A stretch of 42,020 nt of DNA from Ignavibacteria bacterium (GTDB lineage Bacteria > Bacteroidota > Ignavibacteria > UBA10030 > SZUA-254): positions 1 through 42,020 of the forward strand of contig JACOSY010000042.1 in assembly GCA_016178595.1 (NCBI GenBank). Reading direction: 5' to 3'. This document shows positions 16,336-21,307 of this stretch, piece after piece. The position numbers and the translations under genes are program-made. Every line of letters begins with the position of its first letter. The first letter of the stretch is position 1. The notes beneath the pieces were generated by a model, which worked only from the letters and a program-made list of their open reading frames with translations, did no database searches and was not told the DNA's origin.

Positions 16336-17805
<1,470 letters not shown>

Positions 17806-17820
<15 letters not shown>

Positions 17821-17837
17821 AAAGTCAAAAGTAAAAA
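17806..17837 (-). repeat. 32-bp A/T-rich repeat, left copy (inverted), at the carB break
   Basis: Its reverse complement matches 17883-17914 at 28 of 32 positions. The four differences come from two swapped heptamers (AAAAGTC and TTAAAAA type). It begins exactly after the last CarB-like codon (CTG 17803-17805) and contains the TAA that ends the N-terminal ORF. Confidence 0.8.
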
Positions 17838-17850
17838 GGAAAGGGAAGAA

Positions 17851-18360
17851 ATGAGTAACGATACGAGTAGAGCAAGAAATATTTTTTACTTTTTAATTTT
17901 GACTTTTGAATTGATCGCGCTTTGCGCGAACGCTCAGGTTCCTCCGGACCGCGACGGACTTCTTGGCGGCGAAGGCATGGGGTATGGACAGTTCGCCGAG
18001 ATCAATGGCTACCCCGGACCCAAGCAAGTACTCGATCTTGCCGATAAACTTAAGCTCACCGCTGCACAGAAGAAGTCGATGCAGGAAATCTACGGCGAGA
18101 TGAGAACGCGGGCAAAGGAACTTGGCAAGCGCATCGTCGGCATCGAAGAAGAGTTGAACGAAGCGTTCAGTTCCGGGCTGGTCAATGAAAAAGCGACGCG
18201 TGATGATTGCGAACAGATAGGCAAGCTGCGCGGCAGGCTGCGTGCGGCTCATCTTGCAGCGCACCTCAAAGCGAAGAACATCCTGACGGAAACACAGATC
18301 GAGTCGTATAAGAAATTGCGCAGTACAGAGAAGAACGCTCAGCAGAGTCATCAGCATTGA
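17851..18360 (+). CDS. Exported Spy/CpxP-like protein inserted between the carB halves
   Basis: A 169-residue protein. The N-terminus carries a hydrophobic stretch FYFLILTFELIALCANA (12-28) that looks like a signal peptide ending before QVPPD. The mature part is helical: KQVLDLADKLKLTAAQKKSMQEIYGEMRTRAKELGKRIVGIEEELNEAF...LRAAHLAAHLKAKNILTETQIESYKKLR. The KLTAAQKK and ILTETQI turns match the LTxxQ motif of Spy/CpxP/periplasmic metal-sensor helical hairpins, which act as envelope chaperones or stress sensors. AAGGGAAGAA precedes the ATG. The repeat at 17883-17914 encodes part of the signal peptide. It has no functional link to carbamoyl-phosphate synthesis. Confidence 0.8.
   Translation: MSNDTSRARNIFYFLILTFELIALCANAQVPPDRDGLLGGEGMGYGQFAEINGYPGPKQVLDLADKLKLTAAQKKSMQEIYGEMRTRAKELGKRIVGIEEELNEAFSSGLVNEKATRDDCEQIGKLRGRLRAAHLAAHLKAKNILTETQIESYKKLRSTEKNAQQSHQH
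17883..17914 (+). repeat. 32-bp A/T-rich repeat, middle copy
   Basis: It matches 18479-18510 in direct orientation at 29 of 32 positions and 17806-17837 in inverted orientation at 28 of 32. It lies in the signal-peptide coding region of the Spy-like gene and translates there as FYFLILTFEL. Confidence 0.8.
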
Positions 18361-18413
18361 AGAGAAGGTGTTATTTGTTTTCAGTTATTAGTTATCGGAG
18401 TGACTAGTGGACG

Positions 18414-20312
18414 GTGAAATGGAATACTCCCTCAGTTCTTTCTATACTCAGTACTTCTATACTAACGCACCACCATACTTTTTACTTTTGCATTTTGACT
18501 TTTGACTTGAAACCAATCACCAAACAGATTCTCCTCAAAGCGAAACGATTCGGCTTCTCGGACCGCCAGCTTGCGACGATCTGGAAAACGGATGAGCTGG
18601 CGATACGAAAACTTCGGAAGCAGCTTAGCGTTCACTCCGTGTTCAAGACCGTCGATACGTGTGCGGCGGAGTTCGAAGCAGAGACGCCGTATCACTATTC
18701 GACATACGAGCAGGAAAGTGAGGTCCGCGTTTCCGACCGGAAAAAAGTGATCATCCTCGGCGGCGGACCGAACCGCATCGGTCAGGGAATCGAGTTCGAC
18801 TACTGCTGCGTGCACGGAGTGTTTGCGCTCGAAGAAGAAGGTTACGAGACGATCATGATCAATTGCAACCCCGAAACCGTCTCGACCGATTACGACCAGA
18901 CCGACAAACTCTACTTCGAGCCGCTAACGCTGGAAAACGTCCTCGATATCTATGAAGTCGAAAAACCCGAGGGAGTCATTGTCAGCTTCGGCGGACAAAC
19001 TCCGCTCAAGCTCGCGAAAGCGCTTGAAGCGAATGGCGTAAAGATTCTCGGCACGTCGTCCGATAGTATCGACGTTGCAGAAGACCGGAAACGGTTTGGC
19101 GATCTTCTCAAGAAGCTTCACATCCCGCATCCACAGGATGGAACAGCTACCTCTGTTGAGGAAGCGGAAACTGTTGCAGCCCGAATCGGTTACCCGGTGC
19201 TTGTGCGTCCATCGTATGTTCTTGGCGGACGCGGAATGGAGATTGTCTATAGGGTCGATGCGCTGCGCGAATACATGAAAGCGGCAGTCAGCGTCTCTCC
19301 CGATCACCCCATCCTCATTGATAAATTTCTTGAAGACGCAAAGGAGTTCGATGTCGATGCCGTCTGCGACGGGAAGGATGTATTGATCGGCGGCGTCCTC
19401 CAGCATATCGAGGAAGCCGGCATCCATTCCGGCGACAGTGCGTGCGTGTTGATGCCGCAGGTCGAGAGCGTTCAGGTGATCGAACAGCTCAAAGATTTTA
19501 CGCGCAAGCTTGCTCTCGCGTTGAACGTCAAGGGACTCATCAATGTACAATGTGCCGAGAAAGGCGGCATCGTGTATGTCCTTGAAGTGAATCCCCGCGC
19601 CTCGCGAACGGTTCCCTTCATCAGCAAGGCAATGGGTTTGCCGCTGGCGAAGATCGCGACGAAAGTCATGCTCGGCAAAACGCTGCGCGAGTTGGGCTTG
19701 CCGCTGGATCGGCAGCCGAAGCATATTGCCGTGAAGGAGCCGGTGTTTCCGTTTGGAAAATTTCCGAAGGCGAAAGTATATCTTGGTCCGGAGATGCGCT
19801 CGACCGGTGAAGTGATGTCGATCTCGGATACGTTCGGCGAAGCGATCGCGAAAGCGTTTGTCGGAGCCGGCGGTACTCTCCCGTCCGAGGGCGGCGTCTT
19901 CATCAGTGTCAACAACAACGATAAGAATTACCGGACGGTCGAAGTGGCGAAGGGATTCCAGCAGCTCGGCTTCACAATCTACGCGACGAGCGGCACGCAG
20001 GTTTTCCTGACGAAGCACAACATACCGGTTACGAGCGTGTTCAAGGTAAACGAGGGACGTCCGAACATCGTTGACCATATCAAGAATGGAGCAATCGACA
20101 TTGTTATCAATACGCCGCTTGGCGAGACGTCGCGGTTCGACGAGCTGGCAATCGGCAGCGCGGCGCTCGAAGCGAAACTCCCGATCATTACGACCGTCTC
20201 CGCCGCTGCCGCTGCCGTCAAAGGCATCCAGTGGATGCGCGATCAGAAATCGAGTGTGAAGAGTTTGCAGGAATATCATAGTGAAGAAAGTGCGACGCAC
20301 TTGGAACTATAA
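18414..20312 (+). CDS. carB: Carbamoyl-phosphate synthase large subunit, C-terminal half (interrupted)
   Basis: This ORF carries the remainder of CarB: the end of the oligomerisation domain (ITKQILLKAKRFGFSDRQLATIW, VDTCAAEFEAETPYHYSTY), the second ATP-grasp (carbamoyl-phosphate) domain (ILGGGPNRIGQGIEFDYCCVHG, NCNPETVSTDYD, FGGQTPLKLA, RPSYVLGGRGMEI, EVNPRASRTVPF) and the C-terminal MGS-like allosteric domain (YATSGTQVFL, NEGRPNIVDHIKNG, NTPLGE). It should turn carbamate and ATP into carbamoyl phosphate. CarB-like sequence begins at about Lys33 (18510). The first 32 residues from GTG 18414 come from repeat DNA, and where translation really starts (GTG 18414 or the TTG at 18507) is not decided. 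Catalytic motifs are all intact, so the two halves could still work together. Confidence 0.9.
   Translation: MKWNTPSVLSILSTSILTHHHTFYFCILTFDLKPITKQILLKAKRFGFSDRQLATIWKTDELAIRKLRKQLSVHSVFKTVDTCAAEFEAETPYHYSTYEQESEVRVSDRKKVIILGGGPNRIGQGIEFDYCCVHGVFALEEEGYETIMINCNPETVSTDYDQTDKLYFEPLTLENVLDIYEVEKPEGVIVSFGGQTPLKLAKALEANGVKILGTSSDSIDVAEDRKRFGDLLKKLHIPHPQDGTATSVEEAETVAARIGYPVLVRPSYVLGGRGMEIVYRVDALREYMKAAVSVSPDHPILIDKFLEDAKEFDVDAVCDGKDVLIGGVLQHIEEAGIHSGDSACVLMPQVESVQVIEQLKDFTRKLALALNVKGLINVQCAEKGGIVYVLEVNPRASRTVPFISKAMGLPLAKIATKVMLGKTLRELGLPLDRQPKHIAVKEPVFPFGKFPKAKVYLGPEMRSTGEVMSISDTFGEAIAKAFVGAGGTLPSEGGVFISVNNNDKNYRTVEVAKGFQQLGFTIYATSGTQVFLTKHNIPVTSVFKVNEGRPNIVDHIKNGAIDIVINTPLGETSRFDELAIGSAALEAKLPIITTVSAAAAAVKGIQWMRDQKSSVKSLQEYHSEESATHLEL
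18479..18510 (+). repeat. 32-bp A/T-rich repeat, right copy, at the carB break
   Basis: It matches the middle copy at 29 of 32 positions and the left copy in inverted orientation. It ends where CarB-like sequence resumes (AAA 18510-18512) and is translated as FYFCILTFDL in front of the C-terminal half. Confidence 0.8.
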
Positions 20313-21057: not shown

Positions 21058-21200
21058 GTAGCCACGAGCTTCAGCTCGTGGAAAACAATAGAAGAAAAGT
21101 TACGATGGGTTTCAACCCATTATATCAAATGCACATTTTTTGGGAGGGCTGAAGCCCTTTTGCTTTTATTGCATACTGAACCACGACCTGAAGGTCGTGG
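21058..21200. repeat. Four-hairpin REP-like array with about 40-bp period
   Basis: Hairpins are CCACGAGC-TTCA-GCTCGTGG (21062-21081), ATGGGT-TTCA-ACCCAT (21105-21120), AGGGC-TGAA-GCCCT (21145-21158) and CCACGACC-TGAA-GGTCGTGG (21181-21200). Centres are 41, 39 and 39 bp apart. The first two have TTCA loops and the last two the complementary TGAA, so the array is an inverted pair of pairs. GTAG (21058-21061) heads the first unit. It fills the gap between the two outer-membrane paralogs. Confidence 0.8.
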
Positions 21201-21307
21201 CAAGTCCGCACCCTGCAAAGTGTTTCAACAACCTGCTACAGTTAACAAAAGAGCGAAGCGTAACATGCTTCTGACGTCCGTCGCACCTCACCAAAGGAAG
21301 TAACAAT

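Follow-up and report, generated by a model that had tools for sequence, protein, structure and literature searches.

A divided carB gene with a Spy-like gene between its halves is probably an inherited arrangement in an order of Ignavibacteria

The carB gene, which encodes the large subunit of carbamoyl-phosphate synthase, is divided in an Ignavibacteria bacterium into separate genes for its N-terminal and C-terminal halves (carB-N and carB-C), and a gene for a Spy/LTXXQ-like exported protein lies between them. The window, which is the whole stretch of 42,020 nucleotides that was analyzed, is contig C40 of a 61-contig, 3.1 Mb assembly. With a probability of about 0.8, the arrangement reflects an old split whose resident Spy-like gene was inherited with the halves as an array, with repeats arriving later and a two-chain CarB as the product. 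The cut would predate the genera that have it, and most likely the families as well. Most simply, one type of Spy/LTXXQ-like gene was already present between the halves in an ancestor common, at the least, to the window's family (f1) and a second family (f6), and the three-gene array would then have been inherited as a unit. Some descendants would have lost the Spy-like gene, either alone or along with a rejoining of the halves.

The left ORF (positions 16336 to 17820, forward strand; 494 amino acids) matches CarB to about residue 490. CarB sequence restarts at TTG 18507 or AAA 18510 in the right ORF, which extends to 20312 on the forward strand and comprises 601 amino acids if translated from TTG 18507, or 632 if translated from GTG 18414. 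A sequence-only reading of the window had described carB as divided with its frame preserved, with almost nothing lost, and with both halves intact and cut in the oligomerization domain; the two in-frame ORFs and their profile matches bear out this description. Against NCBIfam CarB model NF003671 (1058 positions), the left ORF aligns to positions 1-477 (835 bits) and the right ORF to positions 479-1058 (834 bits), so that each half individually exceeds the cut-off of 599 and one model position is missing between them. The TIGR01369 scores are 797 and 729 against a cut-off of 1027, and each half is below the threshold when scored alone, as expected of half-length proteins. The cut falls between model positions 56 and 57 of the Pfam oligomerization domain PF02787, and carB-C contains the end of this domain, the second ATP-grasp unit and the MGS domain. 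Assignment to CarB is supported by the presence, across the two ORFs, of both synthetase units, the oligomerization domain and the MGS domain. The key ATP-grasp residues of the N half, R129, R169, Q285, E299, N301 and R303 (E. coli numbering), are invariant in all 10 aligned N halves, and EVNPR is present in the C half, as judged by eye. The carA gene is on contig C33, with a score above the cut-off. Downstream of carB-C, a tRNA with a stop anticodon was called by ARAGORN at 21133-21224 of the window, and is probably a false positive.

The CarB large subunit would thus be made as two chains cut in the oligomerization domain, each retaining a complete synthetase unit, and these may assemble into the usual enzyme. 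Because CarB works as two halves in Aquifex, an active two-chain enzyme is likely in this lineage. It is extremely improbable that the structure is an assembly or sequencing artefact or a decaying pair of pseudogenes. Assemblies do break near the site in several genomes (G002, G004, G058, G076, G079 and G080), as repeats or strain variation would cause, but the same structure is found in 22 genomes, both halves pass the NF003671 cut-off, and dN/dS for carB-N and carB-C is about 0.05-0.1 in the six comparisons with a defined dS. Moreover, a search for an intact copy elsewhere, as had been proposed from the sequence, revealed no second carB of the split type in the window's assembly when the left half was the query; only the two halves match as CarB, and the third match is weak (24%).

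The Spy-like gene occupies positions 17851 to 18360 on the forward strand and encodes 169 amino acids; this ORF and its antisense shadow are the only ORFs of at least 90 amino acids inside the segment. The protein resembles the Spy/CpxP/ZraP/CnrX family (PF07813 and PF13801) in that it passes the cut-off of PF07813 LTXXQ (26.2 versus 24.3 bits), contains two LTxxQ motifs (LTAAQ and LTETQ), begins with an export signal judged by eye, the mature part starting at about residue 29, and is helical in a single-sequence structure model. It differs from this family in that it fails the cut-off of Metal_resist PF13801 (27.1 versus 29.2 bits), contains a YPGPKHVL-like stretch, is placed between carB halves, and yields no significant fold match: the low-confidence model (pLDDT 64) has CnrX as its best PDB matches (lowest E 0.47), and ZraP follows from rank 20. 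No PDB chain matches the protein by sequence at E 0.05 or better. The PF07813 match and the export signal agree with the initial description of an unrelated exported Spy/CpxP-like gene. Judged from these features, the protein probably reaches the periplasm and may have its own role there, either as a chaperone or in metal binding. The nested gene is under purifying selection because dN, which is 0.05-0.41 in nine genome pairs, is well below dS, which is at least 0.86 in seven pairs and saturated or undefined in the other two. In the single member of family f5 with the nested gene (G036), the Spy-like gene and carB-C share 4 nt if TTG is the start of the latter.

Three copies of a repeat are found at the locus; all are arrays whose 7-bp unit is TTTTGAC or a variant of it. 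Copy 1 (17806 to 17838) is A-rich on the forward strand, and so inverted relative to the other two, and it encodes the last four codons of carB-N (SIQN) and the stop codon. Copy 2 (17879 to 17914) is T-rich on the forward strand and lies inside the Spy-like ORF. Copy 3 (18475 to 18510), also T-rich on the forward strand, holds the TTG start of carB-C at 18507, and is read through if translation starts at GTG 18414. The sequence-only reading had placed repeats at both joints (17806-17837 inverted, and 18479-18510), with the left one supplying the stop codon, and both observations hold; 17806-17838 and 18478-18510 are 85% complementary over 33 nt. Copy 2, which that reading missed, matches 18475-18510 with 89% identity over 36 nt. 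Its translation provides the hydrophobic part of the predicted signal peptide of the Spy-like protein (..RNIFYFLILTFELIALCANA; judged by eye). Copies 1 and 2 can pair as 37-nt arms that are 84% complementary and 45 nt apart, to form a hairpin of -28.2 kcal/mol (z -2.35), and 4 of 200 shuffled sequences were as stable. A further inverted match between 17780-17808 and 18415-18443 (79% over 29 nt), which links the end of carB-N to sequence ahead of copy 3, is probably due to chance. No target-site duplication was seen by eye at the segment.

The distribution of this arrangement was established from 80 relatives (62 with a match) and 75 members of the order with at least 90% completeness (52 with a match). 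Loci were fetched, and the states of 53 loci in four families, including the window, were assigned by hand. Among these, 22 have the order carB-N, Spy-like gene, carB-C; nine are bare splits, one has another gene inside, and 21 are unbroken. In the window's family, all six loci have the Spy-like gene between the halves. Family f6 has 15 loci with the nested gene, seven bare splits and three fused genes (n = 25), family f5 has one, two and four, respectively (n = 7), and family f4 has 14 fused genes, one with another ORF inside, and none with the Spy-like gene (n = 15). One of the 22 spans a contig break, since carB-N stops at a contig end in G004 and the Spy-like gene begins another contig. 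The carB-C gene is cut by a contig end in G002, G076 and G079, and three f4 genes (G053, G062 and G068) are cut by contig ends yet read through the joint. Left unclassified were G187 and those f5 members that gave partial matches only, such as G032, G051, G057, G060, G066, G069, G072 and G078. Within f1, the sole CarB of G003, G005, G008, G011 and G014 has about 49% identity and an open frame of 645-1087 amino acids, as if the split CarB had been replaced, and G001, G010, G012 and G013 have no carB match at E 1e-80. The nested type of Spy-like gene is retained as a free copy in G005, G014 and G010 (truncated by a contig end in G010), and no split-type carB-N was found in these three genomes.

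Relatives do share the split and the Spy-like gene, as a check suggested from the sequence showed: 22 of 53 loci, in three families, have one gene type at one site. This finding also bears directly on the origin first proposed for the arrangement, in which a repeat-ended mobile segment carrying the Spy-like gene, the repeats being its ends, recently entered a carB that was still whole, within this genome or genus, and left both halves functional. Such an event would account for the inverted repeat copies at both joints, and the repeat acts like an insert elsewhere in the genome: in alaS (L211, G000:C28, 2369-2405), an in-frame heptamer array adds about 10 residues (..TTKSKVKSQKSKSG..), and of the six relatives with a match among eight searched, five lack the array stretch and one, G002, carries an insert of another kind. 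A recent insertion is nonetheless very unlikely, and is contradicted by the co-divergence of the Spy-like gene with CarB (r = 0.91) and by G002, G006, G007 and G029, which have the nested gene and in which the repeat pattern gives 0 matches with up to two mismatches. These are four of the eight nested-gene genomes searched. The Spy-like ORF is, as noted, the only one of at least 90 amino acids in the segment apart from its antisense shadow. A mobile element would be absent from close relatives and would require repeats at its ends; here the segment is shared by relatives, and some genomes with it have no copy of the repeat at up to two mismatches. These results favor instead what the sequence-only reading had offered as its alternative, an older lineage-level split with repeats added later.

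The repeats are not needed for the three-gene arrangement. Because four nested-gene genomes lack them at up to two mismatches, a later arrival is simplest, and the heptamer repeats at the joints are thus most simply younger than the split and its resident gene. Against this, other nested-gene genomes searched do carry the repeat: at the same setting, matches number 16 versus 0 in the control for G009, 7 versus 3 for G004, and 8 versus 2 for G024. The window's genome (G000) has 43 versus 2. In 91 carB loci, the 1.3-2.8 kb part was scanned for arrays; it does not reach the joint in G004 and G062. A stricter setting yields arrays in G000 and G009 only, and a looser setting adds weak matches in G043, G068, G035, G159 and G141. 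The signal peptide of the Spy-like protein of G009 (L073, G009:C130, about 1663-1701) scores as a decayed heptamer array, and because this array overlaps the signal peptide, the repeat probably predates the parting of the window's genus and that of G009. Arrays dispersed through the genome would therefore have reached the gene borders in or before the common ancestor of these two genomes, and one of them would have come to encode the core of the Spy-like signal peptide. Signal peptides of more distant Spy-like relatives are unrelated to the repeat-encoded one. A dispersed intergenic repeat that supplies coding sequence for export signals is already known, and the signal peptide core encoded by a repeat is similar here; the present case differs in that the repeat is an array of 7-bp units, and in that more distant relatives of the protein have unrelated signal peptides.

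The repeat is dispersed in the window's genome beyond chance, because a search with its 19-bp core and up to three mismatches, another check that had been proposed, finds 80 matches versus 19 for a reversed control. Unit scoring in the stretches fetched around core matches yields 46 arrays, among which are five inverted pairs within 150 nt, two same-strand neighbors, and none in the opposite order, numbers that allow no firm conclusion on a mobile element with paired arms. Other arrays in this genome lie at ORF ends, upstream of starts, or inside alaS. Four ORFs (in L008, L012, L192 and L203) end within heptamer arrays and have tails such as SKVKSKK or SKVKMKK, as if the arrays had extended the gene ends. 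The idea that the repeat is a general source of signal peptides was rejected, since the Spy-like gene is the only clear case in a first motif scan of stretches from this genome, judged by eye.

Trees of CarB were made by using FastTree and a short treekit search, with the long-branched G092 excluded from the second tree. Loci cluster by family, and fused and split members are intermixed. In the quick tree (LG+G4), a single clade of all fused loci is rejected (log-likelihood 1105 lower), as is a single clade of all Spy-bearing loci (1021 lower). The nested Spy-like genes and the three free copies form one clade relative to a paralogue elsewhere in the genomes (support 96/98), and Spy-like and CarB distances are correlated with r = 0.91 both in 22 genomes and within the 15 genomes of f6; none of 10,000 permutations is as high in either set. 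Because the nested genes form one clade and their distances follow those of CarB, the simplest account of these sequences is that the Spy-like gene was inserted once, before f1 and f6 parted.

Alternatively, the carB site might be a hot spot at which several fissions occurred and various genes landed, the Spy-like gene more than once. Different genes do occupy the gap in some genomes, namely a 351-aa ORF with an export-like start in G044 and an ORF read by eye as HAD-hydrolase-like in G145 and G094. In addition, the split G044 adjoins the fused G017 in the CarB tree (SH-aLRT 91), f4 contains fused genes, as does the base of f6, and the Spy-like type also occurs as free copies, so that separate entries of an inherited gene in f1 and f6 are possible. 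This explanation is doubtful as a general one, given that the nested genes are of one type relative to the paralogue and track CarB, and that one event most simply explains why f1 and f6 have this type at the same site. Independent insertion may be correct for G044, for family f14, and perhaps for G036, whose placement is not firm: an AU test does not reject a grouping of its Spy-like gene with the paralogue (p 0.22), which counts against the single-insertion reading for f5. Furthermore, gene state alone could allow a fused ancestor of f4 and f6, with the fused G055 basal in f6 and f4 nearly all fused.

An old split inherited with its resident gene, the reading preferred here, raises the question of how the fused genes arose. 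Within the order, at least nine state changes are needed for the Spy-like gene and six for the fused state; these are unrooted counts that give no direction. With at least six transitions between the split and fused states required by the tree, more than one rejoining of carB is probable, and tree positions together with parsimony favor repeated rejoining. The chances are about even that several lineages independently reversed an ancestral split with a resident gene by losing the resident and rejoining the halves in frame, such that fission has been reversible within one order. The strongest cases, whatever the root, are G037, which is fused and pairs with the split, Spy-bearing G049 of its own genus (SH-aLRT 97), and G046, likewise fused, which belongs to a clade (100) with split members of its own genus, including two that carry the nested gene. 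Family f4 adjoins f6 in the tree (SH-aLRT 94), and an ancestral split would add f4, G055, and part of f5 to these cases. The reverse is seen in G044, which is split beside a fused relative.

The joints of the fused genes are uneven in length: 43-61 residues in the 21 fused genes of the order, and, outside it, 44-46 residues in 37 of the 47 loci that match the motif among 80 named loci, with a full range of 42-54. The joint of G037 (..GGMKPVTADRLLKAKQ..) contains a methionine (..GGMKPVT..) that recalls the second-half starts MMKPVT in G044 and MKQIT in G007. This likeness is suggestive only, because in its sister G049 the second half begins elsewhere and lacks this methionine.

A split CarB is already known, and the arrangement described here is a different version of it. 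In the account given in PMC6022934, the carbamoyl-phosphate synthase of Aquifex aeolicus comprises CPS.A, CPS.B and a glutaminase (Ahuja 2001), and the mixed chains form an active complex. As far as that account goes, the Aquifex enzyme is similar in having its large subunit encoded by two genes, one for each synthetase unit. What is different here is that a single order presents a series of fused genes, bare splits and splits holding a resident gene, and that the two halves lie far from each other in other families of the class. Two genes for the large subunit, carB1 and carB2, are also found in some methanogens, which are similar in this respect. No description of the carB-N, Spy-like gene, carB-C arrangement was noticed in the literature, mainly in titles and the openings of abstracts.

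Fused, bare split and resident-bearing states of one enzyme gene occur side by side in this order, and nearby families add scattered halves, so that the order of events, the tolerance of carbamoyl-phosphate synthase to a two-chain form, and what becomes of a gene lodged within another are directly testable. If gene splitting is reversible, a fused or a split state does not mark history in one direction only. The locus also exemplifies a conserved protein whose export signal is encoded by a simple repeat, and carB genes such as these may be mistaken for broken ones.

A class-wide search covered 215 genomes, order members included, and 188 of them gave a match at E 1e-120. Of the genomes followed up among the matches listed, the eight of f11 are bare splits in which 31-76 nt separate the halves, and the nine of f9 have scattered halves, as does the one of f7 (G120). 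The seven genomes of f14 among these matches comprise four with scattered halves, two with other ORFs between the halves, and one fused gene; the remaining families listed are mostly fused. In four of the 14 scattered cases (G102, G162, G165 and G186), one contig carries both halves, separated by 70-341 kb. In the others, the halves are on different contigs, and no carB-C was found in the few kilobases fetched beyond carB-N. A Chloroherpetonaceae metagenome-assembled genome (L112), the best named match among those listed (72%), has a carB-N of 492 amino acids and no carB-C within the fetched flank. In L227 (G094:C16), the HAD-hydrolase-like ORF between the carB halves has a neighbor, at 1699-2319 of the oriented locus, that resembles a REP-associated transposase.
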